IMG/VR virus record: IMGVR_UViG_3300035659_000019
Location: 1-53,402 of that record
Length of the DNA stretch: 53,402 bases
Reading direction: 5' to 3' (one strand)
DNA from: a virus
Shown: piece after piece, positions 3,329-27,438 of the stretch
Numbering within the stretch: the first letter of the stretch is position 1
Layout of the letters: the number at the start of each line of letters is the position of its first letter
Notes under the pieces: generated by a model
Seen by the model: only the letters and a program-made list of their open reading frames with translations
The model's database searches: none
What the model was told of the DNA's origin: nothing
Translations under genes and position numbers: made by a program

Positions 3329-3388
3329 AACATTCTCCTCATAGTCGCGGGCAGAGCGGCCGGCCTCGAGGCCCATCTCTATGTAAAT

Positions 3389-4186: not shown

Positions 4187-4274
4187 GACCCCGGCGTTTA
4201 CCCGGCTCGATATCGTTTCCGCTCCGCGATCAAAACTGTTACAAAAGTAACGTTCAAACCAGGACATTTGACAT

Positions 4275-4303
4275 TTGACTTGGAGTTAGAATTCATGTAC
4301 AAT
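4275..4303 (+). promoter_or_regulatory. Strong sigma70-type promoter
   Basis: TTGACT (4275-4280), 17 bases, then TACAAT (4298-4303). It is followed by an 11-A tract (4316-4326) and a roughly 350-nt untranslated stretch, so it probably drives the structured RNA at 4423-4517 and the zinc-ribbon gene at 4663. A second TTGACA lies at 4268-4273. Confidence 0.8.
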
Positions 4304-4935: not shown

Positions 4936-4944
4936 GTAATGTGA

Positions 4945-5083
4945 CACACTCAGCTCTGATAAGCTTACAATCTGAGCTGTCCGCTGAAGTCGAGTGAGAG
5001 ACTAAACGTGCTAGTCAATACTAGAGTGACGTCTGCACTTGCTTCCAGCAGCTCAGTTGTCAAGCTTGTCAGAGCTGAGTGTG
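4945..5083 (+). repeat. Long inverted repeat forming one 139-nt hairpin
   Basis: The outer arms 4945-4966 and 5062-5083 pair over 22 bp with a single G-T. Pairing continues inward through ACAA/TTGT and CTGAGCTG/CAGCTCAG (4967-4979/5049-5060) with one bulged base on each side. Shorter helices follow (AGTG/CACT, AGAC/GTCT), and the tip is CTAGT-CAAT-ACTAG (5011-5024). The whole element could fold as one rod. It ends 40 bases before the HTH gene at 5123, so it may be a regulatory leader, a free small RNA or a MITE-like element. Confidence 0.75.
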
Positions 5084-5122
5084 GCCCACCTAAAACCACA
5101 CCAACACCTTAGGAGGTGTACG

Positions 5123-5581
5123 ATGCCTAGTAACATTGATCCCAAGTTAGCCTATACCATCAAGCAGGCTGCTTTAGCCTGCAGCCTTGACCCAATGTGG
5201 GTCAGACGTATGGTACAGGAGTCCAAGTTGGATGGCTGCTACCAGGAGAACGTACCTGGCACGACCATCAAACGATGGATGATTCCAGGAGCTTCTCTGA
5301 TCAAGCACGCAGCCAATGCTAAGCAGAGCAAGCGAACTGACGGAGCCACTAAGTTCACGATGTATGCTGATCGTGCGATGGCTGCTAAGTTGGAAGAGCT
5401 TGCCAAAGCAAATGGGTTGGTTGTAACCATCCAGAGAGCTAACACTCCTGAGCAGATTGCTAAGCGATATGCTCACCAGAAAGCTCAGCGAGCTCTTGCC
5501 AAAGCGAATGCTACCAAAGCTTCTGCAGCTAGCAAGCAGCGAGCGTTAGCAGCACTTCGAGGTACTGTCAGCAAGAAGTAA
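5123..5581 (+). CDS. Excisionase-type HTH protein with Lys/Ala-rich tail (paralogue A)
   Basis: 152-residue probable DNA-binding protein. The start is the ATG preceded by AGGAGGTG; an upstream in-frame ATG at 5039 lacks a ribosome site and lies inside the hairpin. Residues about 10-40 read as a MerR/excisionase winged-helix unit (YTIKQAALACSLDPMWVRRM). A middle unit starts KFTMYADRAM, and the last 45 residues are Lys/Ala/Arg-rich with histone-H1-like composition. The same architecture recurs at 9481 and 16688. Each copy stands alone, flanked by structured non-coding DNA. It could be an autoregulator, a nucleoid-type protein or a replication/partition factor. Confidence 0.75.
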   Translation: MPSNIDPKLAYTIKQAALACSLDPMWVRRMVQESKLDGCYQENVPGTTIKRWMIPGASLIKHAANAKQSKRTDGATKFTMYADRAMAAKLEELAKANGLVVTIQRANTPEQIAKRYAHQKAQRALAKANATKASAASKQRALAALRGTVSKK

Positions 5582-5621
5582 CCCAAAGCGCTGAAGCGCG
5601 CACGACCAAATTGAATACCCA

Positions 5622-5687
5622 GAGCATGCAGCCGGCACCTGCATGCTCCTGGTGAGTCGCAAAACTCCACCTCCACGCGGTGCGACT
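5622..5687 (+). other. Two intergenic hairpins
   Basis: GAGCATGCAG / CTGCATGCTC (5622-5631/5639-5648) is a perfect 10-bp stem with a 7-nt loop. AGTCGCA / TGCGACT (5655-5661/5681-5687) forms a second stem. Neither is followed by a T-run, so classic intrinsic termination is unlikely; processing or translational control is possible. A GCGCT/AGCGC mini-palindrome lies just upstream at about 5588. Confidence 0.55.
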
Positions 5688-5727
5688 TGGACAATGCTAA
5701 CGGAGAATTGAAGGAAGGAGAACTAAA

Positions 5728-5919
5728 ATGCCAGAACTACCGTTCGACCTAAACATGATTCGATTCTTAGCTCAGCGAATACACGATCATCTAGACCAAA
5801 TAAGCAAGGTGATAGAGATTGATGATGAGCAATTCGGTGAGCTCAACCACTTTGTGAGTTGGATCGTTGACCACAATCTGGAATACCTAATCGAGAAAGG
5901 AGGCAAAGCCAATGACTGA
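5728..5919 (+). CDS. Small acidic protein of unknown function
   Basis: 63 residues, largely helical and rich in Asp, Glu and Ile, with no recognisable motif. AAGGAGAAC lies upstream of the ATG at good spacing. The last codons overlap the start of the small membrane protein at 5912, which suggests co-translation. Confidence 0.6.
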   Translation: MPELPFDLNMIRFLAQRIHDHLDQISKVIEIDDEQFGELNHFVSWIVDHNLEYLIEKGGKAND

Positions 5920-6085
5920 CAAATATCAATACATCAAGGCAGGCGCCTGGCGCGCACATCAGAATGGTGTGCGTGAGTCACACACAGTGCGCCGCGCCGC
6001 GGCAAGCATTGCATTCTGGATGCTTGCAGTCGGCGCAGCCAGCTGCTTCGTGGCGATCGTGGTTCTTGCGATCGTCGTCCGGTAA
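5912..6085 (+). CDS. Small single-pass membrane protein
   Basis: 57 residues. The N-terminal half is polar and basic; the C-terminal half is a hydrophobic segment (about residues 32-56, ending VAIVVLAIVVR). The start overlaps the preceding gene by 8 nt and AAAGGAGG lies upstream. The type of small membrane protein seen in phage accessory regions; role unknown. Confidence 0.6.
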   Translation: MTDKYQYIKAGAWRAHQNGVRESHTVRRAAASIAFWMLAVGAASCFVAIVVLAIVVR

Positions 6086-6145
6086 CATAGAGCCCCCGGC
6101 CCGGGGCCCCCAGTGCCCCGACCCACAGGACCCCCGCCCCCCGGA

Positions 6146-6187
6146 GCGGGTGTCTGCAATCTGCGAATATCGTGACCGGGGACACTA
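6146..6187 (+). repeat. Duplicated intergenic element, copy 1
   Basis: 42 bases beginning GCGGGTGTCTGC and ending GGACACTA match 8873-8914 at 34 positions without gaps. Both copies keep GTGTC near the left end and GACAC near the right, so each can form a hairpin. It lies just upstream of the SprT-like gene, after a very GC-rich stretch (6088-6145). A shared regulatory or RNA element is likely. Confidence 0.6.
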
Positions 6188-6225
6188 GCATGCTGCGTCA
6201 CATCGCAGCGGAAGGAGAGCTTATC

Positions 6226-6735
6226 ATGTACACAGAGAGAACAACCGGCGGCGAGCCGGTGGACGTCGGACCGCTGTACGCGGAGGCGCTGCGGGCCTGG
6301 GGCCCCTCAGCCCTGCCGCCGGCGGAGATGATCCGCGTGACCATCGAGCCGCAGATGACCCGCAACTTCGAGCGGGCCTACCCCAAGGCGTTCCACCGTC
6401 ACACGGGCCAGAAGGTTAGCCGCGACTACTACGCGATCACCCTCAGCGGTCCATGGTTCTGCGCTATCCAGGACGTCTGCGGAGAGCAGGTGCTACTGGA
6501 GCAGTGGCGCGACACGGTACTACACGAGCTTGCGCACATCAGCATTTACCACACGCGCCCGGGGTCAGGAATTCACCACGGATACGAGTGGCAGCGTCTC
6601 ATGCAGAAGGTGGGGCTACCTACCTGCGCACGAGCGTTCTACCCTTGGTCATACAAGGTAGCGCTACCTGGTACGAAGGTAACCTGGGCTCAGATAGCGA
6701 GTTACAAAGAAGACGAGCACGGAGGCGACTCATGA
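6226..6735 (+). CDS. SprT-like zinc metallopeptidase
   Basis: 169 residues. The start is the ATG after AAGGAGAG; an in-frame ATG 54 nt upstream lacks such a site. The active-site helix VLHELAHISIYH holds HExxH (H100, E101, H104), followed by a third candidate ligand in HHGYEW (117-122), the SprT/Spartan pattern. The family includes peptidases that clear DNA-protein crosslinks, but phage members are uncharacterised. No zinc-ribbon follows the catalytic domain. It sits in the small-gene accessory region, so a role against host DNA-bound proteins is possible (inference). Confidence 0.75.
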   Translation: MYTERTTGGEPVDVGPLYAEALRAWGPSALPPAEMIRVTIEPQMTRNFERAYPKAFHRHTGQKVSRDYYAITLSGPWFCAIQDVCGEQVLLEQWRDTVLHELAHISIYHTRPGSGIHHGYEWQRLMQKVGLPTCARAFYPWSYKVALPGTKVTWAQIASYKEDEHGGDS

Positions 6736-6784
6736 CGGCAGAGAACCGTCAGGGTACCGCTCATGTAATAATCATAACAAACGG

Positions 6785-6825
6785 CACGGGTAAAAATTAT
6801 TATAATAATATATAATATATATAAT
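6785..6825 (+). promoter_or_regulatory. AT-rich promoter-like region with an inverted iteron motif
   Basis: The reverse complement of 6785-6796 reads TTTTTACCCGTG, matching the array unit at 8949-9287. It is followed at once by three TATAAT hexamers (6801, 6811, 6820). No clear -35 is seen. This is a plausible regulated promoter for the gene at 6863. Confidence 0.45.
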
Positions 6826-6862
6826 GAAAACCGTAACCCCACTACCACAAGAAAGGAGCACC

Positions 6863-7030
6863 ATGGACGAGAAACTGAAAGCATTGCTAGTAGCCTTCCT
6901 AGAGAAGGTAGTCTCTGGCACCGAGTCGATCATCGAGCTTCGGGTATACAAGGACGCTGACCCCGTATACAAGATGATCGAGCTGTGTCAGATGGACGAC
7001 GGCTCGTACGAGATCGAAGACGAGCAGTAG
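6863..7030 (+). CDS. Small acidic protein of unknown function
   Basis: 55 residues starting at ATG 6863, which follows AAAGGAGCACC; an upstream in-frame ATG lacks such a site. The N-terminal half is an amphipathic helix (KLKALLVAFLEKVV); the C-terminus is acidic (SYEIEDEQ). No family recognised. Confidence 0.6.
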   Translation: MDEKLKALLVAFLEKVVSGTESIIELRVYKDADPVYKMIELCQMDDGSYEIEDEQ

Positions 7031-7040
7031 GTTCGACGCC

Positions 7041-7068
7041 CTGTCCTGGAGCGAGGACTCCAGGACAG
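7041..7068 (+). other. Perfect 11-bp intergenic hairpin
   Basis: CTGTCCTGGAG (7041-7051) and CTCCAGGACAG (7058-7068) pair perfectly around a 6-nt loop. A second short stem (CCGGC/GCCGG) follows before the next ribosome site. No T-run, so it may be an mRNA processing or stability element. Confidence 0.6.
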
Positions 7069-7102
7069 CCGCCGGCTCTACTGCCGGAGAGAGGAGTACC
7101 AT

Positions 7103-7873
7103 ATGCACCCTGAGACAAAGCACGACATGCTAGCCGCACTACTGTATTACCACGACTACGTAGCGAACGGCCGGCGTCACCTTACGACCTTGGGTCGCGA
7201 CGGGTACTACCACCCCATTGAGGACCTTGAGTGCCCGCTGTGCGAGAACGCCCGGTGGATCTCGTCGTACGGATCACATATGCGGAGCAACGAGCACATC
7301 GTTGCGAAGTTCCGCGTCTCACGACGACGGCTCCAAAAGGCCCAAGAGTACCTGACCATCCTAAGCCACGGTCAGGGTCTTACGCCAGACGTAGCATATA
7401 AGCGTCTGTCGTTCGGCGAAGGAGATCTGTCAGGGCTACTCGTATCACCACACAAGTCTGACGAGCCCTGGCAACCTGGTAAGGTGTACGAGGCGACCTG
7501 TGTCAGTTCCGACATGACGCAGGCCGCACATACGCCCCCAGGAGAGGACTGCACGTGCGGGATCTACGCATTCTGGGACCCAGTACAAGCCTTCGAATAT
7601 CCAGGAGGCGACGTAACGGTCCGCCTGAAGATTGGCGGACTAATAGAGGACTGCGAGGAAGGCTGCAGAGCCCAATACGCGGTCATTACAGGCCTAGTCT
7701 ATCTCGAGCACGCACGGGATAGCTTGGTCGTAGACACCGCGAGCATCGAGCTCTCGGCACGATACGGAGTACCGGCCATACCGGCAGTCCGTGAGAACCA
7801 GGGAGAGAAGCTCCGTACGATGTTGGAGCCGCTATTCTCCCAGTGGGATATGGAGGACAAGAGCCATGAGTAA
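7103..7873 (+). CDS. Unknown protein with a C2H2-like zinc motif
   Basis: 256 residues. A Cys/His cluster at about 44-65 (ECPLCENAR... SHMRSNEH) resembles a C2H2 finger. The middle has CTCGIYAFWD (about 151-160) and further cysteines (DCEEGC). GAGAGGAG precedes the ATG. The C-terminus overlaps the HTH gene at 7866 by 8 nt, so the two are probably co-translated. No enzyme family recognised; a nucleic-acid-binding role is possible. Confidence 0.65.
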   Translation: MHPETKHDMLAALLYYHDYVANGRRHLTTLGRDGYYHPIEDLECPLCENARWISSYGSHMRSNEHIVAKFRVSRRRLQKAQEYLTILSHGQGLTPDVAYKRLSFGEGDLSGLLVSPHKSDEPWQPGKVYEATCVSSDMTQAAHTPPGEDCTCGIYAFWDPVQAFEYPGGDVTVRLKIGGLIEDCEEGCRAQYAVITGLVYLEHARDSLVVDTASIELSARYGVPAIPAVRENQGEKLRTMLEPLFSQWDMEDKSHE

Positions 7874-8156
7874 GTCCCTGATCAGCGACGAGCCTCGTGT
7901 ATCGTATAAAGAGGCTGCCGACATCCTGGGTGTAGATCATCATTACGTCCGGATACTGACGGCTCGCGGCGTCTTCGAGATCTTAGAGGAGCGCCGCATT
8001 AGTCCCCACGTGATCAAGGTGTTCATCAGCCTTGAGAGCGTGGAGCGTTACCAGGAAGCCCACCGTACGCGTACGCGCCATATGGTAAAGCTGACTGAAG
8101 ACGAGTGGTCGCAGTTCCGGGCCATGTTCGGCAATGACAAAATCCGAGGAGGGTAG
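7866..8156 (+). CDS. Excisionase/MerR-type HTH protein
   Basis: 96 residues. Residues about 11-60 follow the excisionase HTH pattern: VSYKEAADILGVDHHYVRIL, then a wing-like segment ending KVFISLESVERY. It resembles the N-terminal domain of the paralogues at 5123, 9481 and 16688 but lacks their Lys/Ala tail. ATG 7866 overlaps the previous gene and GGAGG lies nine bases upstream. Probably a transcription regulator or DNA architectural protein. Confidence 0.7.
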   Translation: MSKSLISDEPRVSYKEAADILGVDHHYVRILTARGVFEILEERRISPHVIKVFISLESVERYQEAHRTRTRHMVKLTEDEWSQFRAMFGNDKIRGG

Positions 8157-8157
8157 T

Positions 8158-8349
8158 ATGACTTACATCGGCAAGAAACGTCGCACGACGAAGCTTCCCA
8201 AGCCGGAGGCCGTTCCGCTCGCGCCGCCTATCCAGGTACCTGACTGGCCTACGCCAGAACGGACACCGGAAGAGGCGCCGCTCGTAGCACCCAACTGGCC
8301 CACTAAGGCACCGGTAACGGTACCCCTTACGCCCGGGGGCAGCTGGTAG
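8158..8349 (+). CDS. Small proline-rich protein
   Basis: 63 residues with a basic N-terminus (GKKRRTTKLPK) and then a Pro-rich low-complexity stretch with repeated VPDWPTP/APNWPT motifs. GAGGAGGG lies five bases upstream of ATG 8158, one base after the previous stop. The composition suggests an extended, unfolded protein. Function unknown. Confidence 0.55.
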   Translation: MTYIGKKRRTTKLPKPEAVPLAPPIQVPDWPTPERTPEEAPLVAPNWPTKAPVTVPLTPGGSW

Positions 8350-8388
8350 CTAGCCGGGGGCTAGGGGGGCCCCCAGAAAGGACCACAT

Positions 8389-8814
8389 ATGTACCGCAGT
8401 AACGGTTATGTCGACCCCAACCGTACGATACCAGGCAAGACGTGGTATCCAAACGGCGCGGCGACACTTCACCACCCTACGTACGAGGTACTGCCTGGAC
8501 ATTGGAACAACATCCGGCAGAACCGACGGTTCCTCATGCTGCTCTACGAGGCCGTCGGCGACGAACCATTCACCAATAAGCAGGCGTACGAGATCTACGC
8601 CAAGCACTGCTGGCAGGGCCGCTTCCGGATCGCAGAGTTCCGAGATCGCGCGCATGCAGAGCTGGACGCCGACTTAGCAGGGATGTACGACAAGGAGATA
8701 GGGTACGGCGACTGCTGGATGCAGATGAACTGCAGGAACCAGCTGTGCACGGGAGCCAAGCGGGGCACCCTGATCCGCTTGGAGCCCGGCCTCTACAGGT
8801 TCCGCCCGTACTAG
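8389..8814 (+). CDS. Unknown protein, possible winged-helix
   Basis: 141 residues with AAAGGA before the ATG. The middle (FLMLLYEAVGDEPFTNKQAY) and the end (LIRLEPGLYRFRPY) look like helices followed by a beta-wing, a layout also seen in the protein at 13395. It is the last gene before a strong terminator. No confident family. Confidence 0.55.
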   Translation: MYRSNGYVDPNRTIPGKTWYPNGAATLHHPTYEVLPGHWNNIRQNRRFLMLLYEAVGDEPFTNKQAYEIYAKHCWQGRFRIAEFRDRAHAELDADLAGMYDKEIGYGDCWMQMNCRNQLCTGAKRGTLIRLEPGLYRFRPY

Positions 8815-8817
8815 TGT

Positions 8818-8862
8818 AACCCACCGACCCTCGGGGTCGCAAGGCCCTCCGGGTTCTTTTTT
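8818..8862 (+). terminator. Rho-independent terminator
   Basis: AACCC (8818-8822) pairs with GGGTT (8851-8855) around an inner hairpin GACCC-TCG-GGGTC (8826-8838), followed by C and six Ts (8857-8862). It ends the 3.6-8.8 kb gene run and separates it from the repeat array. Confidence 0.8.
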
Positions 8863-8872
8863 GCCCAACGGC

Positions 8873-8914
8873 GCGGGTGTCTGCCATCTGCCAATTTCCT
8901 GGCCATGGACACGA
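8873..8914 (+). repeat. Duplicated intergenic element, copy 2
   Basis: Matches 6146-6187 at 34 of 42 bases, including the GTGTC...GACAC arms. Here it lies between the terminator and the repeat array. An inverted CGGGTAA (8924-8930) follows at once. Confidence 0.6.
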
Positions 8915-8948
8915 ACTTTCTAGCGGGTAACAAACTTTGGGGAAAAAC

Positions 8949-9287
8949 ACCCGTGTAGTATGGATTCAACTCCTCGTTACCCGTGTAAGGACCGCTCCTA
9001 GGCGTTTACCCGCGTAAAAATCCTCTCACGGTCTTTACCCGTGTAGAAGGAATTCAACACCATGCTCCCCGTGTAAAGTCCGGCCCCTACCTTTTACCCG
9101 TGTACCACAGTTAATCAAACGCGCTCCCCGTGTAAAGACCAGCGCGGCACCACTACCCGTGTAGTAGGATGTTCAAAGACGGCTACCTACGTAGCTAAGG
9201 AGCAAATCACCGCTACCCGTGTAAAAACACCCAAACACGCAGACCCGCGTAACTCTCACCGCTACCCGTGGCACAGTTACCCGCCAG
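8949..9287 (+). repeat. Iteron-like array: 11 units every 28-30 bp, consensus TTACCCGTGTAA
   Basis: The core CCCGTGTA (or CCCGCGTA) starts at 8950, 8980, 9009, 9038, 9068, 9097, 9127, 9156, 9186 (degenerate, CCTACGTA), 9216 and 9244; shorter forms (CCCGTG, CCCGCC) lie at 9265 and 9280. The spacing is 30, 29, 29, 30, 29, 30, 29, 30, 30, 28. The unit is an imperfect palindrome (TTAC/GTAA). The intervening bases vary, though units at 8950, 9038 and 9156 share GTAG-A/T-AGGA-TTCAA. This roughly 340-bp stretch has no gene. It looks like a multi-site protein-binding array: replication origin, centromere-like site or operator cluster. Confidence 0.85.
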
Positions 9288-9389
9288 AGGCGCACCCGCC
9301 ATGCTAACTCTCTACGGACCCCGGCACTTCTAGAGAACCGTCCTGACCATACCATGACGTATCATCAAAAAATTCATGACAAACGCCAC

Positions 9390-9418
9390 TTGACATAAAA
9401 TTACTAATATTCTATAAT
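9390..9418 (+). promoter_or_regulatory. Perfect-consensus sigma70 promoter
   Basis: TTGACA (9390-9395), 17 bases, TATAAT (9413-9418). It drives the HTH gene at 9481 with a roughly 55-nt leader, and the repeat array lies just upstream. Confidence 0.9.
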
Positions 9419-9430
9419 ATATATAACGAT

Positions 9431-9450
9431 TGAACAGCGTATCATGTTCA
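9431..9450 (+). promoter_or_regulatory. Candidate operator, inverted repeat TGAACA-N8-TGTTCA
   Basis: A 20-bp dyad lies 12 bases downstream of the -10, about where transcription begins. It fits a repressor site, perhaps for the product of the gene it precedes. Confidence 0.45.
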
Positions 9451-9480
9451 TAGACTACTACAGGAAAGGAGGATACCCCA

Positions 9481-9897
9481 ATGGCTAACGACAAGAACAC
9501 CGCCCCTAAGACTTCGTATTCCATCGAGGAAGCTGCAAAGTTCCTCGGAATGCGCAGCCAGTACGTCCGGACGCTAATCCGGACCGGCAAGCTGCCCAGC
9601 ACGAAGGTACAGTTAAGCGAGAACATGTGGCGCCACGAGATCGCACTCGCAGCGCTCGAGGCTCGCAAGGCCGCAGGAAGCACTCGCGGCAAGCCGGCGA
9701 ACGGCAACAAGTACTTCATCCACGCAACTCCAGTCGTACTTGCTCGGCTTCAGGCGATCGTCGCGAAGGAAGGCCTAAGCATTACCTTCGCCCCCGCATA
9801 CGACAAGGCCAAGGCGAAAGCCCAGTACCTGAAGCAGAAGGCCAAGAAAGCCGCCGCGAAGAACGGCACGCTCAAAGCCGTCGTCGAGAAGAAGTAG
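9481..9897 (+). CDS. Excisionase-type HTH protein with Lys/Ala-rich tail (paralogue B)
   Basis: 138 residues, preceded by AAAGGAGG. The N-terminal HTH (about 12-60) reads YSIEEAAKFLGMRSQYVRTL, with a wing ending in a helix rich in Ala/Arg. The middle unit starts KYFIHATPVVLARLQ. The C-terminal 40 residues are almost only Lys, Ala and Gln, as in histone-like tails. It is transcribed from a perfect promoter immediately beside the repeat array, so it is the first candidate for the protein that binds those repeats. Paralogues at 5123 and 16688. Confidence 0.75.
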   Translation: MANDKNTAPKTSYSIEEAAKFLGMRSQYVRTLIRTGKLPSTKVQLSENMWRHEIALAALEARKAAGSTRGKPANGNKYFIHATPVVLARLQAIVAKEGLSITFAPAYDKAKAKAQYLKQKAKKAAAKNGTLKAVVEKK

Positions 9898-9926
9898 TGA
9901 CCCCGGCCCCCAAAGCTCCACATAAC

Positions 9927-9948
9927 GAGCCGTCCGTAAGGACGGCTC
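9927..9948 (+). promoter_or_regulatory. Hairpin with GTAA tetraloop beside the ribosome site
   Basis: GAGCCGTCC and GGACGGCTC form a perfect 9-bp stem with a GNRA loop (GTAA, 9936-9939). It ends one base before the AGGAGG that serves the gene at 9962. No T-run. It could control translation or block 3'-to-5' decay of the upstream message. Confidence 0.6.
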
Positions 9949-9961
9949 TAGGAGGTTGCCT

Positions 9962-10318
9962 ATGCTCAGTTTCGAGATCGACTTTGCCTGGGACATAGAC
10001 GCCACGCCTTACCAAGATCACGACTTCATGCACCTCGGCGGCGAATGGAACTCCAGCGGATTGCTACCAGATCGAGCCACTGGACAGCGGTTACGCGACG
10101 TACAGCTGCTTTTGCACACGCCCCTGCAAACCCGTAATGCTGTCAGATGGATGGAGGCCTTGGATCCGCCGCTCGAGTATGTCAACGTGCATTGGGCTCC
10201 GCCTGACTGGATCGTAAGTATCCAGGAATGGGCGGATACCCATGGCTTAGCTGCGTTGAAATGGTGGATCGATGATATCGGAGATGATCTAGTGGAGTGG
10301 CTATGTGCCTACGCATGA
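9962..10318 (+). CDS. Unknown protein, Trp/Asp-rich
   Basis: 118 residues starting at ATG 9962; AGGAGG lies six bases upstream. It opens with FEIDFAWDID and is rich in Trp (eight) and acidic residues (WWIDDIGDDLVEW). This superficially resembles a HAD-type DxD start, but no other motif supports that. Last gene before a roughly 470-bp non-coding gap. Confidence 0.6.
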   Translation: MLSFEIDFAWDIDATPYQDHDFMHLGGEWNSSGLLPDRATGQRLRDVQLLLHTPLQTRNAVRWMEALDPPLEYVNVHWAPPDWIVSIQEWADTHGLAALKWWIDDIGDDLVEWLCAYA

Positions 10319-10397
10319 GATTACGAAAGCGGCGTCCCCGGGTAAAGCGTATCAGGTTAGACTTATTCACGGTGACGATCCGTAAAAGAAAATAAAA

Positions 10398-10434
10398 CGG
10401 GCCCAGTGGGCATACTAACGTATGCCCACACCCG
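10398..10434 (+). other. Strong hairpin in the 10319-10789 gap
   Basis: GTGGGCATAC / GTATGCCCAC (10406-10415/10420-10429) is a perfect 10-bp stem with a TAAC loop, extended by CGGG/CCCG. No T-run follows. A second inverted repeat, ACAATAAT/ATTATTGT, lies at 10445-10452/10464-10471. An inverted iteron core (CGGGTAAA, 10339-10346) lies before it. Confidence 0.55.
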
Positions 10435-10530
10435 GGGATAACGAACAATAATTTTCCTTTGTCATTATTGTCTAAGATCCAGAGGATGCTTATATATAAA
10501 TACTAATAGAAACGTATAAACTCACATATA

Positions 10531-10560
10531 TTGAGAGTCTGAACGGTTCTGCTGTATAAT
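10531..10560 (+). promoter_or_regulatory. Sigma70-type promoter
   Basis: TTGAGA (10531-10536), 18 bases including the dyad GAACGGTTC, then TATAAT (10555-10560). A very AT-rich stretch with an (ATT)n tract (about 10602-10620) follows, and then a roughly 150-nt mixed leader with the palindrome CCGTTAACGG (10680-10689). Confidence 0.65.
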
Positions 10561-10718
10561 GATTTAGAATACATAGAATATATAGAATAATACTAGATAA
10601 AATATTATTATTATTATTATATATTATTAATGGGACCCTCAGCCATTCCAACTCCCTGTTTGTCTCTTACCCACTGAGCCCGTTAACGGCAACACGTCCC
10701 GGTAACGCTCACAGTAGG

Positions 10719-10764
10719 TTTGGAACAAATGCCACGTTCCAAATAACAAATAATGGCGTATAAT
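10719..10764 (+). promoter_or_regulatory. Candidate operator plus -10 upstream of the 10.8-16.6 kb operon
   Basis: The dyad TTTGGAAC (10719-10726) / GTTCCAAA (10736-10743) overlaps the -35 position of a TATAAT at 10759-10764. The -35 itself is weak. The gene starts at 10790 with AAAGGAGG in between. This looks like a promoter governed by a dimeric regulator. Confidence 0.5.
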
Positions 10765-10789
10765 AGAATCATATAGGAAAGGAGGAACC

Positions 10790-11314
10790 ATGGATATAAA
10801 TTTGGAAGACGAACGAATCACCTCGCTCGAAGAGAGCGAACGCATCGAAGTGATCGATGTGGCGCTCAACGCATGGGCAATGGGTACTGCTCTGGATGTC
10901 GCCGACTCTCTTCAAGGCGACGAAAAGGCACGAGAGTTCATCCTCCAGCACATCGAGATGATCGACTACGTCGCTGGGCAGGCCGCACATCTACTCGAGG
11001 TGCACTTCACACCGCCGCCTGTAGACGCTCTCACGGTTGCAACCGCACTTACGGATCCCGACGTCTTTGCAGACCATCCTAACGGACTCGTAGACATGAT
11101 CGGCAGCCACCCAGCGTACATTGAAGCCTGTGTTGGTCGTATCGCAGCCGTACTGGGTACCGGCGTTGCATTGATCTACGAAGATGTAGGCTACCGGCAC
11201 CTCGACGAAGAGACCACCAAAAAGGTCCGCGACATCGACGAGCAACTATATCTCGATGTACTACAGGCTCTACATTACCAAGAAAGGAAGGAGTACCATG
11301 CCACCCAAGGGTAG
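10790..11314 (+). CDS. Unknown acidic helical protein
   Basis: 174 residues, strongly acidic, predicted mostly helical. First gene of a tightly packed run of small genes to 16566. AAAGGAGGAACC precedes the ATG. The C-terminal 17 nt overlap the next gene and contain its ribosome site. No family recognised. Confidence 0.65.
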   Translation: MDINLEDERITSLEESERIEVIDVALNAWAMGTALDVADSLQGDEKAREFILQHIEMIDYVAGQAAHLLEVHFTPPPVDALTVATALTDPDVFADHPNGLVDMIGSHPAYIEACVGRIAAVLGTGVALIYEDVGYRHLDEETTKKVRDIDEQLYLDVLQALHYQERKEYHATQG

Positions 11315-11621
11315 CACATTGATCCTCGATACGTATGAGGATCCATTTAGTCAGCTGGTGGAGTTTCTACAGAGCCTCCCTAATCCAGAGGCGCCCATCA
11401 GCATCCATGAAGTAGACCCGAGCATGACCTACAAAGTTCGGCCCTACTTTACGGCGTTCAGCAAGCGACAGGCAGTCCTCATTCTGAGGATCCTAAAAGA
11501 CACACTATGTGAGTGGGAAGCTTGGGGCCCACCCGAGAAGTACCCAATGACCTACACCAAGCAGGACATCATTCGTATGATAGCACAACTAAAGGCGGTG
11601 CTAAATGTCAAGCACGAGTGA
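11298..11621 (+). CDS. Unknown protein
   Basis: 107 residues from the ATG after AAGGAAGGAG; an in-frame upstream ATG at 11256 is less likely. Sequence is ordinary soluble alpha/beta (ILDTYEDPFSQLVEFLQ; AVLILRILKDTLCEWE). Overlaps both neighbours, so it is translated as part of the operon. Confidence 0.65.
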   Translation: MPPKGSTLILDTYEDPFSQLVEFLQSLPNPEAPISIHEVDPSMTYKVRPYFTAFSKRQAVLILRILKDTLCEWEAWGPPEKYPMTYTKQDIIRMIAQLKAVLNVKHE

Positions 11622-11898
11622 CACACTAACCAAAGCCCAGGAGTGGGAAGAGGCTCACTCATTTGAGGAGTGGCAAGCCTTACCCGTTACCAGAGACGAC
11701 CTGGATCAATGCATCTGCGATGCAATCCACGCCGCTCTGGCGATCCCTGGGGTATGGGATGCAGTCATGTCACAGGCCCACAAGGAAGACTTTACCACGC
11801 CTGAGGACGACGACCCGTACTCTATTCCCTTCTACTATATTTGGGAACATCTAACAACAGAGGAGGTATCAAGTGACAAGCAAACTAGTACGTCATAA
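11605..11898 (+). CDS. Unknown acidic protein
   Basis: 97 residues, acidic, with EEWQALPVTRDDLDQ and an acidic C-terminal half. Starts inside the end of the previous gene (17-nt overlap), and its own end overlaps the GTG start of the next. No motif recognised. Confidence 0.6.
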   Translation: MSSTSDTLTKAQEWEEAHSFEEWQALPVTRDDLDQCICDAIHAALAIPGVWDAVMSQAHKEDFTTPEDDDPYSIPFYYIWEHLTTEEVSSDKQTSTS

Positions 11899-12349
11899 GG
11901 TCAGCGTCTCGGTCTACAAAGTAGGTGCGGATCAACCAATCCTGCACGTAGAGCTCGAAGACTACGACCCCATTCGAACGGATGGCGAAGTTTATCGAAC
12001 CGCCACCCCAGTCAATGGCCATTACATCTTTGTTGGGGTCGAACCGCTCCCCGATCAACCGCGTATAAGCCTTACCCGAGCGCAAGCAAAGACCGCGCTC
12101 GAAGGGTGCTACGCTCAGATCAGCGAGTACGACACGATGCCCAACGACCCCAAGAACGCAAAGTACCGTACCTTGGCGCAGACACTCGAAGAGTTCCTAC
12201 AGACCAGCCGCACTCCACCTAAAAAGCGGAAGCCGGCTGACATCGAGATTCACTTCACGCCATCGGTTAAATCGAACTACGGTCCTGATCCTGACGTTAG
12301 CGACGTAATTCGCCAACACGAGGAGAGCGGCGATGGCTTCCCTCCCTAA
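11873..12349 (+). CDS. Unknown protein (GTG start)
   Basis: 158 residues. GTG 11873 is chosen because AGGAGGT lies five bases upstream and no in-frame ATG fits. A beta-rich N-terminal half is followed by a basic linker (PPKKRKP, about 111-117). C-terminus overlaps the next gene by 17 nt. Function unknown. Confidence 0.65.
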   Translation: MTSKLVRHKVSVSVYKVGADQPILHVELEDYDPIRTDGEVYRTATPVNGHYIFVGVEPLPDQPRISLTRAQAKTALEGCYAQISEYDTMPNDPKNAKYRTLAQTLEEFLQTSRTPPKKRKPADIEIHFTPSVKSNYGPDPDVSDVIRQHEESGDGFPP

Positions 12350-12737
12350 CCTTAAGTCCATCGAAGGGGCCCTCAACGACTTCGTCGACAAACTAACAGC
12401 CGGCAATGAGGCTGCCCTCGTCGAGATGCGGAGGAAACGCGAAATGCCTATCCAACTTGACCCCACAGGAGATCCCTACGAGCGCCTGACTGAGTTCCTA
12501 GAAGCCGCGATGACTTATGCGCAACGCGGCGAGTGGCCTCTAGTTCAGGAGATGCTAACCAACGCCAACGAGGCGTTATCATATATCGTGCCAATCGGCG
12601 CACCATTTCGTCATATATGGACGACTACACCCGCCGATAGCTTTGACCTTTGGGTATGTGCGCGATGCGGCAAACATTCGAACGACCCAGTTCCAAACGC
12701 AAAGGAGGTTTGCAATGACAGTGCAAGCAGTGGTTAG
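12333..12737 (+). CDS. Unknown protein with C-terminal CxxC
   Basis: 134 residues: helical N-terminus, then CARCGKHS at about 109-116 and a further Cys near the end, possibly one half of a zinc-ribbon. GAGGAG lies upstream of the ATG. The end overlaps the next gene by 23 nt, and the next ribosome site (AAAGGAGG) lies in its last codons. Confidence 0.6.
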   Translation: MASLPNLKSIEGALNDFVDKLTAGNEAALVEMRRKREMPIQLDPTGDPYERLTEFLEAAMTYAQRGEWPLVQEMLTNANEALSYIVPIGAPFRHIWTTTPADSFDLWVCARCGKHSNDPVPNAKEVCNDSASSG

Positions 12738-13122
12738 AATAGCCAAGGATCCGCGAGGCGGCAGTACCTGGCTCGTAGACCTTGGATTCGTCCATCCTAG
12801 TCTGGGATGGACTTCGATTCACCAAGTGAATCACATCCCCAGCGTAGCCGTAAGCGTTGTCGAGAAGTACATTCAAGCAGATGGCTACAAAATGAGCGAC
12901 GACCTCGAGACGGAGATTTCGTATCTCCGCATGCATCTAGCTGCACGCATCGATGACGCGGAACAGCAACTAAACCAGCATGACTACGAAGAGGCCGCCA
13001 ACTGTCTCAACGTGGCAAGCGGCCATGCAAGCGCAATCGCAGGTCTCTGGCCTAAGTATCTAGCCTCGCTCACAGATGTTATAAACGCGCGAGAGGAGTT
13101 ACGTCATGCCTTCCCCAAGTAA
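12715..13122 (+). CDS. Unknown protein
   Basis: 135 residues from the ATG after AAAGGAGG. N-terminal beta segment (VQAVVRIAKDP), C-terminal helices (DDAEQQLNQHDYEEAANCL). No recognised family. Overlaps the next gene by 17 nt. Confidence 0.6.
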   Translation: MTVQAVVRIAKDPRGGSTWLVDLGFVHPSLGWTSIHQVNHIPSVAVSVVEKYIQADGYKMSDDLETEISYLRMHLAARIDDAEQQLNQHDYEEAANCLNVASGHASAIAGLWPKYLASLTDVINAREELRHAFPK

Positions 13123-13420
13123 AGTTCAGCATACCGCAATCGACGTCGAGCTAGGCGAGAAACCTGCTCGAGCCTCGGTCAGCGAGTTCCAGGGTAAGAA
13201 CTACATATCCCTGCGTTATACGTACGAGGACCGTAACACGCATGAGACCAAGTTCGGTCAGAACGGAATTAACATGCAGGCCGGTACTGACGTTGCTACG
13301 CTCATTGAGGTTGGCGTAGAAGCGATCGAGTCCCTCATCAACGTACTCAACGTCTCAGCAGGCACCCACTACCATCTGGAAATGGAGGATACCAATGCAA
13401 CTGACACCAATAGCATCTAA
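13106..13420 (+). CDS. Unknown protein, weakly PC4-like
   Basis: 104 residues. The segment from about 28 to 56 (FQGKNYISLRYTYED ... FGQNGINM) has the strand pattern of PC4-type single-stranded DNA-binding coactivators, which phages and bacteria sometimes encode; the match is weak. Ends inside the next gene. Confidence 0.55.
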   Translation: MPSPSKVQHTAIDVELGEKPARASVSEFQGKNYISLRYTYEDRNTHETKFGQNGINMQAGTDVATLIEVGVEAIESLINVLNVSAGTHYHLEMEDTNATDTNSI

Positions 13421-13679
13421 GCCGCGGAAGCCGTCTGGCGCGTTCATCAAGTACCTTAGGGAGCACAACTTCCGCCCCGGCGAGTTCTTAACCGCTAGGG
13501 ACCTTAGCTTCGCCTACTACCGACATGCAACGAAGCTACCGCTGACAGACGAAGCATGCGCCTATCGACACCGGGATTCGAACTGCCGTGGCAACGCCGG
13601 TTTTGAGATCCGACGCTTACTGGACTACGGCTACATCTCCAAGTTCAAGAAGGGGCACTACATCGTCGTCCACTGGTAA
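13395..13679 (+). CDS. Unknown basic protein, possible winged-helix
   Basis: 94 residues, preceded by GGAGGATACCA. It ends with an HTH/wing-like layout (FEIRRLLDYGYISKF, then KGHYIVVHW), resembling the end of the protein at 8389. Closes the overlapping run that began at 10790. The short gap after it holds a dyad (GATCCGA/TCGGGTC). Confidence 0.55.
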   Translation: MQLTPIASKPRKPSGAFIKYLREHNFRPGEFLTARDLSFAYYRHATKLPLTDEACAYRHRDSNCRGNAGFEIRRLLDYGYISKFKKGHYIVVHW

Positions 13680-13758
13680 CCTTTGATCACTTCGGGGGGA
13701 TCCGAACGACGTTCATTCGCTCGGGTCCTACCTAGGTGCTAAAAGGAGGCACCACATT

Positions 13759-14388
13759 ATGGACCAAATTGATTCGTTCACGGGCGACAACTTCTTCCTG
13801 TCGAACTTCTACCCAGCATGTATCAAAGTAGAAGGTATAGCTTTCCCGACGGTAGAGCACGCATACCAGTACGCTAAGACTCTGATCCAGAATGAGCAGA
13901 TTGCAATTCTGACCGCACCTACACCGGGAGCAGCAAAGCGACTAGGTAAGACGGTTACGCTCCGAGCAGACTGGGAGATGATCAAGGAGGAGGTTATGCG
14001 CAAATGCCTCAGCCAAAAGTTCGCTATACCCGAACTCGGTACGGCTCTCCTCGCTACGGGAACCGCGGAACTTATCGAAGGGAACTCGTGGGGAGATACG
14101 TACTGGGGCGTGTGCAATCACGCAGGCCAAAATCGACTCGGCGAACTGCTAATGCAAGAGCGCAGCAAGGCTAGGATGGACATCGACCCAGACATCCTCA
14201 AAGAGTACTACCTTCGTCGTAACGAGCTAGACTACTTCTTCGAATACCTCGACGCCAACGGCTACGACGTCGAAGCATTCATGGAGAAGAACGAGGCCCG
14301 GCTGGACAAACTCGCCAACCAGCTCGATCTGGCTATCGCAGATCTGCTGGACAACCTAATCGAAGCAGATGCGGAGGGTATCATATGA
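13759..14388 (+). CDS. NADAR (YbiA/DUF1768) family protein
   Basis: 209 residues. Signature segments: FLSNFYP (13-19), EGIAFPTVEHAYQYAK (25-40), and ELIEGNSWGDTYWG followed by GQNRLGELLM (about 104-132). NADAR proteins act in NAD/ADP-ribose metabolism, and some are reported to remove ADP-ribose from guanine in DNA. The first 140 residues are the domain; a 65-residue charged helical extension follows. Good ribosome site (AAAAGGAGG). In a phage, a role in undoing ADP-ribosylation-based defence or restoring NAD is plausible but inferred. Confidence 0.85.
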   Translation: MDQIDSFTGDNFFLSNFYPACIKVEGIAFPTVEHAYQYAKTLIQNEQIAILTAPTPGAAKRLGKTVTLRADWEMIKEEVMRKCLSQKFAIPELGTALLATGTAELIEGNSWGDTYWGVCNHAGQNRLGELLMQERSKARMDIDPDILKEYYLRRNELDYFFEYLDANGYDVEAFMEKNEARLDKLANQLDLAIADLLDNLIEADAEGII

Positions 14389-14498
14389 TAATCGAAGTAC
14401 TGAAACATTCGGGCAACTTCTTTACGGCGTGCATGGTCATAATCGCGTGCGCCGGCTTTTTGATATGGGACCACTTCTTTAGAGGGCCGCACGAATGA
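14385..14498 (+). CDS. Small single-pass membrane protein
   Basis: 37 residues. ATG overlaps the NADAR stop (ATGA), and its own stop overlaps the next start the same way. One hydrophobic segment (FFTACMVIIACAGFLIW, about 12-28) with a short basic/acidic tail. Role unknown. Confidence 0.6.
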   Translation: MIIEVLKHSGNFFTACMVIIACAGFLIWDHFFRGPHE

Positions 14499-15121
14499 AG
14501 ATCTACGACAGCATGCACCCAACACTGCACAGCATAGACCTGCCGCATCACCTGATAGAGAACTGCATAATCTACGACGTAAGGTGGCAGGTACTCAAGG
14601 CGCAGCTTATCTGGTCGAGCCCCGTATTCATTAAGTGGGCTAGCACACAGCTGTTCCGTTACATGGAGGAGCAGGTCTCGAACCAAGAGAAGATGCGTCG
14701 CGTCTGCCGCATCCAACCGTACGCCAATCGAGCAGGCTTCGGTCCGCTCGAAATCCCTAACCCCTTCCTCCTCGGAGACTGGGACTGGAATAACGTACGG
14801 ATCGATCTTATAGCGCTCTGCCATCAAGACATCCGCCTAGCACACCTCCTAAGAAACTTGACGGACGGCAAGCAGTACTCGACTCGAGAAGGGCAGTACT
14901 ACAAAGGAATCGTCCTAGCCGTAATCGCTAGGAGGGAACCGCAGACTAGCGGAGCATTCATCTCGAGTCAAGCCGGAGCGTTCTGCGGACACTGTAACCA
15001 CTGGTTCGCCGAGCGATTCATTGTGTACGGACTTCCAACACATCATGCGTGCGACTTCATGCCTGACCACTACTGCCGTGCGTGTGCAGTTGCGTTGAAC
15101 GTAACGGAGCTAATCGTATGA
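14495..15121 (+). CDS. Unknown protein with C-terminal zinc-ribbon
   Basis: 208 residues. The first 150 are helical with several Trp; the end holds CGHC (about 164-167) and CRAC (about 195-198), with His between, forming a likely zinc-ribbon. Coupled by ATGA overlaps to both neighbours. Unrecognised. Confidence 0.65.
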   Translation: MKIYDSMHPTLHSIDLPHHLIENCIIYDVRWQVLKAQLIWSSPVFIKWASTQLFRYMEEQVSNQEKMRRVCRIQPYANRAGFGPLEIPNPFLLGDWDWNNVRIDLIALCHQDIRLAHLLRNLTDGKQYSTREGQYYKGIVLAVIARREPQTSGAFISSQAGAFCGHCNHWFAERFIVYGLPTHHACDFMPDHYCRACAVALNVTELIV

Positions 15122-15366
15122 ACGCCCATCCACACGTCGGTCAGCATAAGCCGTGTATACAATGCGGCTCTAATAGCGTCTCGGCTTGGACTACGAAGCT
15201 CGTCCAGAAGTACAACCCCAAGAAAGGGCACCTGGAGACGCTCGGCTCAGTCCGCAGGCGCGTGTGCCGTGATTGCGGATACGAAGAAAGGATGGAAACA
15301 TGTGGATCGCCGTCAGTAGTCACGTCCCCCGAACCGGGACGTTCCACGCAGAGTCCGAAGACCTAG
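15118..15366 (+). CDS. Small zinc-ribbon protein
   Basis: 82 residues from the ATG that overlaps the previous stop. CIQC (about 13-16) and CRDC (about 49-52), each in a typical zinc-knuckle setting, flank a basic segment (KLVQKYNPKKGH), like the zinc-ribbons of transcription factors. Low-complexity Ser/Pro tail. Confidence 0.65.
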   Translation: MNAHPHVGQHKPCIQCGSNSVSAWTTKLVQKYNPKKGHLETLGSVRRRVCRDCGYEERMETCGSPSVVTSPEPGRSTQSPKT

Positions 15367-15569
15367 ACTCGCTGATGTTTCTTTGTGCTGGAATGTGTAT
15401 CCGAGCCACTAACAACGAGGCCGAGATTGGTTGTGCATCTGAACCTGAACTACACCATTTCCATATCGGCCCAGTCGTCGAGCAGGCTAGAGGCATTCAC
15501 CTTGTCCTACCGTTTCTTGACATCTACGAGACGGTAGAAGGGCAGTTTCTGTATGACCGCCGTAATTAA
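15300..15569 (+). CDS. Unknown protein
   Basis: 89 residues, starting at an ATG inside the previous gene behind GAAAGGATGG. Rich in Cys and His in the middle (LCAGMC ... HHFH) but without a clear binding motif. Confidence 0.55.
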   Translation: MWIAVSSHVPRTGTFHAESEDLDSLMFLCAGMCIRATNNEAEIGCASEPELHHFHIGPVVEQARGIHLVLPFLDIYETVEGQFLYDRRN

Positions 15570-15581
15570 GAAAGGAGTAAC

Positions 15582-16103
15582 ATGTATGCCCGCATCTTTA
15601 CAATCTTGCTGGTCGCCGTGCTACTGTTCCCCGCTATGACAGCGTGCGCTACGGTTGCAGGGATTGACCCAAGTGTGGCTCTATCACAGCCACCGTTGGA
15701 TGGAGACATCATCGCAATGCAGTACGGAGCTACCTTGAACGGCATGCGTACCGCACTACGGGAAGCAGGCTATGGCCTACCGCGGATCTTCACAAAAGAC
15801 GCGTTGATGCTCTTCCGTTGGCCAATGTCCCAAGGTTGGGGCTTCGCCGTACTCGATCGCACGCGTACCGGTCTCATTCCAGACAACGGGAACTACGTAA
15901 ACGTCGAGACAATGAAGTCCTTACAAAACGGTCTCGCCGGCTGGAAGCAAGCAGCCCCGGATGAAGTACCTGCTTGGGTGACAACTGCTTTAGGCGGAAT
16001 CCAAGCCTTCGTCGGCACGCTTGCTGGATCACTTACTACAATGTACCTAGTTCCAGCTCCGTGCCCGACGATTAACTGCCTATACCCAACGTCGGAGGAA
16101 TAA
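15582..16103 (+). CDS. Predicted lipoprotein
   Basis: 173 residues. The signal peptide has a hydrophobic core (IFTILLVAVLLFPAM) and a lipobox MTAC at about 19-22, so it would be processed and anchored as a lipoprotein. AAAGGAG lies upstream. A second hydrophobic segment is near the C-terminus (ALGGIQAFVGTLAGSL). Phage lipoproteins made early are known to block superinfection in some systems; here that is inference. It shares no motif I know. Confidence 0.65.
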   Translation: MYARIFTILLVAVLLFPAMTACATVAGIDPSVALSQPPLDGDIIAMQYGATLNGMRTALREAGYGLPRIFTKDALMLFRWPMSQGWGFAVLDRTRTGLIPDNGNYVNVETMKSLQNGLAGWKQAAPDEVPAWVTTALGGIQAFVGTLAGSLTTMYLVPAPCPTINCLYPTSEE

Positions 16104-16106
16104 CAA

Positions 16107-16382
16107 ATGTGGACATTCGGTCTCCCCCTATGGGTTATGCTTGCGGCTCGGTACTGCGTTCGCAAGAGAGCAAAGCAAACAGCCCGTACAGAGGATCCTA
16201 GATACGCGCTGAACGCTTACCAGGTCCTCCAAACAAGGGTAATCAACATGCCCTTGACGTACAACGCCTTCGAGATGGAGATTCGTCACCACCTGCTACA
16301 GTGGTTGGCGAAGGAGATTGCAGCTCTCGAGACGCTTATCGCAATGAACGTCGTAGCAGTAGGAGTGATACCTCATGAGTGA
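16107..16382 (+). CDS. Small protein with N-terminal hydrophobic segment
   Basis: 91 residues. A hydrophobic start (WTFGLPLWVMLAARY) is followed by a basic patch (RKRAK), consistent with a membrane anchor; the rest is helical. CGGAGGA lies upstream. It follows the lipoprotein by three bases, so the two may work together. Confidence 0.6.
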   Translation: MWTFGLPLWVMLAARYCVRKRAKQTARTEDPRYALNAYQVLQTRVINMPLTYNAFEMEIRHHLLQWLAKEIAALETLIAMNVVAVGVIPHE

Positions 16383-16566
16383 CCCGCACGCATATATCTG
16401 GTCGCAGGACGGACATGAGTACCACGTTACAGACGACCCAAGCGACGCACCGGAAGGTACAAATGCTTGCCCGCTAGCGGCCGAGACAGATACCTTTCTC
16501 AGTACCTACGAAGGGCTACTCGACGAGTACGATTGTACGCTAATCGACGACCGGCTCAGTACTTAA
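16375..16566 (+). CDS. Small acidic protein
   Basis: 63 residues, very acidic, overlapping the previous gene by 8 nt. Last gene of the 10.8-16.6 kb operon. No motif. Confidence 0.55.
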   Translation: MSDPHAYIWSQDGHEYHVTDDPSDAPEGTNACPLAAETDTFLSTYEGLLDEYDCTLIDDRLST

Positions 16567-16570
16567 ATAA

Positions 16571-16659
16571 GTTGGACGTGTTCAACTTTGGTATGTTCTC
16601 CCTTAGTTTTAACGTTATTTTCACGTTAGTAGGTTATACTAAAAGAAAGCACGTCCAAC
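16571..16659 (+). repeat. Inverted repeat framing a promoter
   Basis: GTTGGACGTG (16571-16580) and CACGTCCAAC (16650-16659) are perfect 10-bp inverted copies 69 bases apart, enclosing the promoter at 16607-16640. They could bind a protein that loops the promoter, or form the stem of a terminator-like structure in RNA. Confidence 0.6.
16607..16640 (+). promoter_or_regulatory. Phage-specific promoter with two 11-bp direct repeats
   Basis: TTTTAACGTTA (16607-16617) and TTTTCACGTTA (16618-16628) are tandem, then GTAGGT and a -10 TATACT (16635-16640). The same arrangement with identical spacing occurs at 20417-20450. No sigma70 -35 fits, so the repeats probably bind an activator. Confidence 0.6.
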
Positions 16660-16687
16660 CCATTCTGTTTAGAAAAGGAGTGTTACC

Positions 16688-17110
16688 ATGGTTCTAGATA
16701 CATCTAAGTTCCAGTTCCCGGACGTTATGAACATTCGCTTAGCGAGTGTCTACCTTGACGTCAGCGAACAGCGGATCCGCGCCCTACTTCGGGAGGGCCG
16801 CATCAAGGCGGACAAAGACGAGGCCGGTGCTTGGATCATCAGCAAAGAGGCCCTTGAGGCCTACAAAGCGGAGCACGCGCAAGGACCCAAGCGCACTTCC
16901 GGCGTCAGTGGCAAAGGCAAGGCCTACGTCGTACGCGTACCGTTCCAGAAGATCCAGGCTGTCAAGGATTTCCTTGCCACTCAGGACATCGAGCTGGAGC
17001 AGCGGTACAACTACGACAAGATGAAAGTCTACCAGCAAAAACGGAAGGCTCGTCTTGCCGCAGAGAAGAAAGAGAAAGCCAAAGCCGCCAAGGCTGAAGC
17101 CGCCAGCTAG
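16688..17110 (+). CDS. Excisionase-type HTH protein with Lys/Ala-rich tail (paralogue C)
   Basis: 140 residues; AAAAGGAG precedes the ATG. HTH at about 13-58 (NIRLASVYLDVSEQRIRALL, wing, then SKEALEAYKAEH). Middle unit starts KAYVVRVPFQKIQAV. The C-terminal 35 residues are Lys/Ala/Glu-rich and coiled. Same three-part architecture as the proteins at 5123 and 9481, again as a lone gene between non-coding regions. Likely DNA-binding; exact role unknown. Confidence 0.75.
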   Translation: MVLDTSKFQFPDVMNIRLASVYLDVSEQRIRALLREGRIKADKDEAGAWIISKEALEAYKAEHAQGPKRTSGVSGKGKAYVVRVPFQKIQAVKDFLATQDIELEQRYNYDKMKVYQQKRKARLAAEKKEKAKAAKAEAAS

Positions 17111-17116
17111 TCAACA

Positions 17117-17386
17117 GGTCGGTGGACCTCGCCTGATGGTCCACCCACCAAATAGACTTAGGATCGACAGATTGATCCCAAGTCTACTTGGTGAGCAATG
17201 TGAGGCTCACTTCGCTTTGGGGGAGGCGTGGACTTCTGTGTGGTCCTCCTTCCTAAAAAACACGACTGCTGGCTACAGTCGTCCTCCTTTGGTGTTCTAC
17301 ACGCCTCCCCCATCGCAGTTGGCCGACAATAGTGCCGGAGAAATTTCTAGCAGCAAAGGAGCCAGACGTATTGCCGGCCAACTGCG
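17117..17386 (+). ncRNA. Chain of stem-loops in a 514-bp non-coding region
   Basis: Between 17111 and 17624 no convincing gene is seen. Successive stems: GGTGGACC/GGTCCACC (17121/17138); a 19-nt arm pair with two mismatches (17147-17165/17174-17192, core TAGACTT..AAGTCTA); GTGAGC/GCTCAC (17191/17205); a perfect 13-bp pair at 17218-17230/17300-17312 enclosing ACGACTG/CAGTCGT (17262/17276); and CGCAGTTGGCCG/CGGCCAACTGCG (17314/17375). Five to six strong helices in 270 nt suggest a structured RNA or an origin-like region. Family not recognised. Confidence 0.6.
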
Positions 17387-17573
17387 GTACAGAGCGTATA
17401 GTCGTACTCGTATGACATTAAGATCGTGTGAGCCAAAAGGGTGAGGCGATAAGGGTAGCAACCCCGCCGCCAACCCCCTACCTGTACCGTACTCACTTTT
17501 CCGCGTAACGTCTAACGCGTCGCTCCACATCTGTGGTCGCTTGACCGTAATTGACGTAGCGTGTGGCAGTGAG

Positions 17574-25745: not shown

Positions 25746-26059
25746 TGGATGGAAGAGTAACGTTGCGGTCAGCCGTAAAGAGCCAGCTCCAGACCTTGAA
25801 ATCGGAGACGGCTTTCTATTACGGCGAGGTTGTTGAAATAAAGGGCGTGAAGTTTACCATAACGCGTATGAACAACTCTACGCTATGTGTACACCCCATC
25901 AATAAGTTCCGGCATTTCGCTGGCATTCTTTTAGTAGAGGAGAGTGAACATGTTACAACAGGTGTTGCAGATTCAGAAGGAACTGGCGCCCCCGAGAGCA
26001 GTAGTACTCCTGTCGGGCGGGATGGACAGCACGACGTGCCTGTCCCAAGCAATCCGTGA
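25745..26059 (+). CDS. Unknown protein overlapping queC
   Basis: 104 residues; ATG overlaps the primase stop (TAATG). The first 68 residues look like a normal small beta-rich protein (YYGEVVEIKGVKFTITRM). The last 36 run out of frame into queC and are low-complexity Ser/Gly/Pro. The 110-nt overlap is unusual here, so the true protein may once have ended near 25950. Confidence 0.6.
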   Translation: MDGRVTLRSAVKSQLQTLKSETAFYYGEVVEIKGVKFTITRMNNSTLCVHPINKFRHFAGILLVEESEHVTTGVADSEGTGAPESSSTPVGRDGQHDVPVPSNP

Positions 26060-26723: not shown

Positions 26724-26731
26724 GAGGATGT

Positions 26732-27399: not shown

Positions 27400-27438
27400 T
27401 CTACGCCTAAAGGAGCTAAATAAGACAGGAGGTGAACT

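Follow-up and report, generated by a model that had tools for sequence, protein, structure and literature searches.

Three genes in the early region of a phage genome, here called A, B, and C, each encode a small helix-turn-helix (HTH) protein ending in a Lys/Ala-rich tail, which raises the question of whether they form one family and what such a family would do for the phage. We addressed this question in the window, that is, the whole stretch of DNA analyzed here (53,402 bp, positions 1 to 53,402 of the IMG/VR record IMGVR_UViG_3300035659_000019). No close relative was found among named phages, either by megablast with the first 25 kb of the window or by tblastn with protein B. The large terminase gene (1419-2843), named via the relatives of the window phage, adjoins a small terminase gene (2813-3376; phrog_6299), and other genes encode an SNF2-type helicase, a NADAR protein, a GH25 lysin, and a family A DNA polymerase fused to a uracil-DNA-glycosylase-like domain. 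Reading of the sequence also pointed to QueC-, QueD-, QueE-, and FolE-like genes (25944-31473) and to three LAGLIDADG homing endonuclease-like proteins with an AGLFDGEGSI-like motif (21475-21990, 27439-27792, and 31457-31870). A possible DpdA-like protein at 30733 matched phrog_20335 and had no Pfam match; together with the Que/FolE-like genes, it makes 7-deazaguanine DNA modification possible in this phage. Neither a tyrosine integrase nor a serine resolvase was detected in the window or in six related records, any of which may be partial, and this fits a lytic life.

A family of winged HTH proteins with a second module

Gene A (5123-5581; 152 aa), gene B (9481-9897; 138 aa), and gene C (16688-17110; 140 aa), all on the + strand, lay where the sequence-only reading had placed them. 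Protein A (type A) consists of a winged HTH (wHTH), a middle module (SKRTDGATKF...RAN), and a Lys/Ala/Arg tail; B has a wHTH, the middle module, and a Lys/Ala tail; and C has a type C wHTH, the middle module, and a 31-residue basic helix. A short type D-like paralogue, gene D (7866-8156, + strand), is part of an operon and contains the wHTH and the start of the middle module, with the tail absent. With B as the query in its own genome, A and C were found at E-values of 6.5e-9 and 2.4e-6, and after the Lys/Ala tails were cut off they were still found at 2e-5 and 5e-4. The homology thus persisted after tail removal, which rules out chance similarity through low-complexity tails. Moreover, a profile of 17 related proteins encoded by other phages, searched against the tail-trimmed ORFs of the window, recovered C (8e-29), B (1e-20), A (2e-17), and D (8e-6) and no others; D is linked to A, B, and C solely through this relatives-only profile. 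These results bore out the proposed kinship of the three proteins. Gene A matched the type A profile of the relatives at 3.5e-14, and B was closer to type A (4.5e-13) than to type C (5e-8).

Pfam recognized essentially only HTH_17 (PF12728) in these proteins, with B and C exceeding the curated score, A and D falling below it, and 14 of the 20 members matching at E<=0.01. The profile match and the predicted wHTH fold together place the family in the HTH_17 wHTH superfamily. The middle module, which had been noticed from the letters as a shared feature, proved to be homologous across groups: the C and A groups aligned over both the HTH and this module (profile-profile probability 97%, E 1e-10), and it is therefore part of the family. 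The AlphaFold model of C, built from 20 sequences, had a mean pLDDT of 88 and comprised a wHTH (about residues 13-64), a linker, a helix (86-98), and the Lys/Ala tail as one confident 31-residue helix (109-139). The models of B and C, the two that were predicted, agreed in the wHTH, in line with the structural comparison proposed earlier.

By composition, the tails stand out as originally described. The Lys+Arg+Ala fraction of the last 32 residues was 0.62, 0.59, and 0.59 in A, B, and C, the top three values among 61 window proteins, and the next value was 0.34. The term "histone-like", by contrast, did not survive beyond composition: in the AlphaFold models and PDB fold comparison, no histone, HU, or Alba fold was found, and the predicted fold is a winged HTH only. 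A basic stretch (YxYxKxxAYxxKRxA) is kept in most type C relatives and is absent from the type C protein of G010, and the tail is missing in most type A and D relatives, with type A relatives ending soon past the RAN motif. Thus, the tail is a C-type trait that is also present on A and B of the window phage.

Fold comparison with Foldseek returned RacA (5i44), Pukovnik Xis (4j2n), BldC (6amk), and RdfS (8dgl), with low rmsd confined to about 55 columns corresponding to the wHTH. No PDB E-value fell below 0.001, so these matches are regarded as fold analogies. The best PDB match of C was RacA, the Bacillus chromosome-anchoring protein (E 1.6e-3), which likewise begins with a wHTH and continues into a helical region; however, neither the second module nor the tail showed similarity to it, RacA gave no match by sequence profile, and its anchoring role has no counterpart here. 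The wHTH aligned with the 6amk chains of BldC, a Streptomyces MerR-like regulator, at 1.2-1.8 A rmsd, and the one HTH Arg that is the sole invariant residue of the family alignment probably corresponds to Arg30 of BldC. On direct repeats, BldC multimerizes head to tail (PMC5859096), and repeated DNA sites also lie near gene B, a likeness in which the array is suggestive only. Yet BldC is a 68-residue single-domain protein (PMC5859096), so the likeness is limited to the wHTH, and the present family, with its conserved second module and predicted helix, falls outside a BldC family defined by the wHTH alone. Pukovnik Xis, P2 Cox, and RdfS share the wHTH fold and the HTH_17/excisionase sequence signature, and RdfS and Cox form filaments (PMC11963761); in contrast to them, the family described here has an extra middle module, a predicted long basic helix in C, no integrase found, and three to four paralogues per phage.

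An ordered paralogue set in related phages

Relatives were gathered from terminase relatives and by searches using early-found family members; in this way, nine more phage records were obtained that contain members of the family (G002, G004, G010, G018, G019, G020, G021, G022, and G023; G021 is a partial repeat of G022). G018, G019, G020, and G022 (about 48-56 kb) each carry three to four paralogues, in the constant order A, D, C in all four records; the order in G022 was read across the record ends. The type clades were well supported (C 97/93, D 99/98, and A 82/91), whereas B and D of the window, on long branches, were not firmly placed in the tree. Gene C is 43-46% identical to its orthologues in five phages. 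From the constant order and the supported clades, we concluded that the paralogue set is old, predates the split of these phages, and did not arise by local duplication. Two scans that covered each bacterial or archaeal species with one genome revealed no family relative, and searches with B alone and with alignments A2 and A5 added no further members. No description of this family was found in the open-access library searched, and its full architecture is described by none of the libraries used. What is already known is the wHTH regulator as a kind; what is new is the three-part architecture, the basic helix, and the ordered paralogue set conserved in uncultivated phages.

DNA elements around the family genes

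In the sequence-only reading, A, B, and C were each set apart by non-coding segments carrying inverted repeats. This holds for A and C; B is also a separate unit, but what lies upstream of it is chiefly an array of direct repeats, and D overlaps genes on both sides and lacks flanking elements like those of A, B, and C. The leader of gene A (4936-5122, + strand; 187 nt) forms a long imperfect hairpin (-87.9 kcal/mol, z -8.6; z -8.9 for the last 200 nt), and the Shine-Dalgarno sequence AGGAGGTG can pair with CACCT in the palindrome CACCT-TAGG-AGGTG, giving a small hairpin at 5105-5118. Leaders of type A genes also folded strongly in G018 (z -7.1) and G019 (z -4.4), and those of G022 and G002 had no strong fold. 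Further upstream, a palindrome, GTTAC-AAAA-GTAAC (4238-4251, unstranded), precedes a sigma-70-like promoter (4275-4303) and resembles the layout of boxes before the type A genes of relatives, to which it may be functionally linked. On the 3' side of gene C, a non-coding segment (about 17108-17500, + strand) is strongly folded (z -6.6) and contains several inverted repeats of 12-20 nt. In several phages, the segments 3' of the type C gene are well folded and may in part be plain terminators; Rfam gave no known RNA family for the folded segments. Two UCCUCCUU stretches in 17108-17500, largely unpaired in the predicted fold, resemble the 16S anti-Shine-Dalgarno sequence. Hairpins with G-rich (GGGGGG) loops followed by a T-arm-like hairpin, alike by eye, were noticed 3' of type A genes in three phages (L132 7901-7975; L092 1940-2026, - strand; L133 6830-6905, - strand).

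Upstream of gene B lies an array of TACCCGYGTA-like units, all on the + strand (8948-9290), of which 10 up to 9251 are within one mismatch, the array becoming degenerate to about 9290. The spacing is mostly 28-30 bp (about 29.5 bp), with one gap of 60. All eight exact ACCCGYGTA sites of the window are inside this array. In the window, TTTACCCG occurs six times, always between genes of the early region and in three cases outside the array. Downstream of the array is a perfect consensus sigma-70 promoter of gene B (TTGACA-17-TATAAT; 9390-9418, + strand); since the array ends about 100 bp upstream of this promoter, direct promoter occlusion is not indicated.

Different elements were observed in the relatives. 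A GTGAY-N4-GTCAC box is found at seven promoters in G004, G018, and G019, most of them ahead of type A genes, with its center 29-30 bp upstream of the -10 element, and it looks like a CRP site. A phage-encoded CRP was rejected as the binder because these phages have no cNMP-binding gene; thus, the boxes may be bound by host CRP or by a phage protein. Nor can the box simply be transferred to the window as a shared 14-bp operator, since the window shows no enrichment of GTGAC-N4-GTCAC (13 found against 26 expected). In G004 and G019, TTCTCAT-like arrays with an 11-bp period, one unit per DNA turn, separate a tandem-HTH gene from the type A gene (autocorrelation z 11.4 and 10.1, with period information far above shuffles); they span about 39 unit lengths in G019 and at least 14 clear units in G004, and in G010 the TTCTCAT core recurs in short 11-bp-step runs just before promoter -10 boxes. 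These arrays and runs are at L133 7700-8135, L092 2870-3140, and L106 495-535 and 750-790, all on the - strand. Irregular site clusters of GGCGTCCCG and GGCGCCCCGC were observed in G020 and G022. The elements therefore differ by phage, yet the recognition helix of type A proteins is well conserved; this combination precludes a firm protein-site assignment and argues against one simple protein-site pairing.

The tandem-HTH gene is a candidate for encoding the array binder. It has about three HTH units in the window (3611-4186, + strand) and about 6-8 by eye in G004, G018, and G019 (genes in relatives: L092 3952-5073, - strand; L132 5343-6491; L133 8201-9133, - strand; L106 2692-3648, - strand), and it is confined to phages with the A/B/C family, plus one short fragment (L006). 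A short conserved non-coding element, GGCATTT...GGTCGATAT, was also seen 3' of this gene in four phages (window 4190-4235; L132 6700-6740; L133 8130-8180, - strand; L008 3150-3215, - strand) and is possibly a packaging or origin site.

Proposed early regulation and its alternatives

We proposed, with moderate confidence, that A to D, the paralogues of one phage-borne wHTH family, are dedicated early transcription regulators with an architectural component. This proposal is supported by the homology, the A-D-C order, the wHTH with its second module, the predicted helix of C, the separate A, B, and C units, and the nearby DNA elements. The wHTH would read repeated or palindromic elements near A and B, the second module would pair or multimerize the protein, and the basic helix may add non-specific DNA contact. 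Assembled at an array, the proteins could then build a nucleoprotein complex controlling the activity of early promoters and possibly the onset of replication, with the tail-less D acting as a plain regulator. The BldC multimers, the RdfS and Cox filaments, and the DNA-coating gp94 described below serve as precedents for this reading. Against this reading, the CRP-like boxes of type A genes could be bound by host CRP, and the co-occurring tandem-HTH protein could be the array binder.

That the arrays belong to the tandem-HTH protein, with the A/B/C family acting elsewhere, has a limited but appreciable chance of being right; it concerns the arrays and is compatible with a regulatory role of the family. 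The occurrence of the gene in the same phages, its position beside the 11-bp arrays of G004 and G019, and the many HTH units there are consistent with it, and one HTH unit per helical turn would fit; however, G018 has a long tandem-HTH protein and no 11-bp array, and the window array is far from the tandem-HTH gene and adjoins B.

The sequence-only reading had offered control or DNA packing. Its first half is supported by the three to four paralogues in fixed order, the separate A, B, and C genes, and the lack of integrase and resolvase in the records. Packing, in which A, B, and C would coat the replicating phage DNA or condense it, the Lys/Ala helix acting like the tail of histone H1, is possible but unlikely: the tails of the window proteins and the confident helix of C accord with it, but the type C protein of G010 lacks the tail, and so do most type A and D relatives, so that packing is not a function shared by the whole family. 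The early-region position, folded leaders, and own promoters also suggest regulated amounts. Precedents exist in Cox filaments, which are cited in PMC11963761 as compacting DNA, and in mycobacteriophage Alexphander gp94, a DNA-coating wHTH protein of the MerR type on which lytic growth depends (PMC11242194). Like A to D, gp94 is a phage wHTH protein; unlike them, it is described as one gene, in a temperate phage (PMC11242194). A wider version, in which the phage lineage would have evolved its own small chromatin-like system, with a wHTH paralogue set, some members bearing H1-like helices, building a nucleoprotein filament on dedicated site arrays to time early transcription or replication onset, is speculative and rather improbable; in two relatives, the arrays extend for a few hundred bp with roughly one site for each helical turn.

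It is also doubtful, and somewhat more so, that B and its array constitute a replication origin with B as an iteron-binding initiator, the clusters near type A genes of relatives being alike in function. The regular 28-30 bp array, the AT-rich promoter region beside it, and a unit that differs between phages as iterons do (GGCGTCCCG in G020, GGCGCCCCGC in G022) would suit an origin, but GC skew does not turn clearly at the array, G018 lacks an array despite its full trio, and the arrays adjoin different paralogues. Roles as prophage or transposon excisionases (recombination directionality factors) and as Nu1-like small terminase subunits are both very improbable: the wHTH has an Xis fold with TIGR01764 and PHROG excisionase matches, B weakly matches phrog_57 over most of its length, and four members match this group, but no integrase or resolvase was found, each phage has three to four copies, bacterial genome scans gave no family member and no homologue proved to be a simple transposon excisionase, and a separate small terminase gene adjoins the large subunit, far from the multiple copies A to D.

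Taken together, we favor the view that A to D are early regulators with an architectural component. If these proteins bind the arrays, they would provide a compact model for the ordering of a lytic phage's early program by several related DNA-binding proteins, and would allow one to ask whether a basic helix makes a packing protein out of a regulator.
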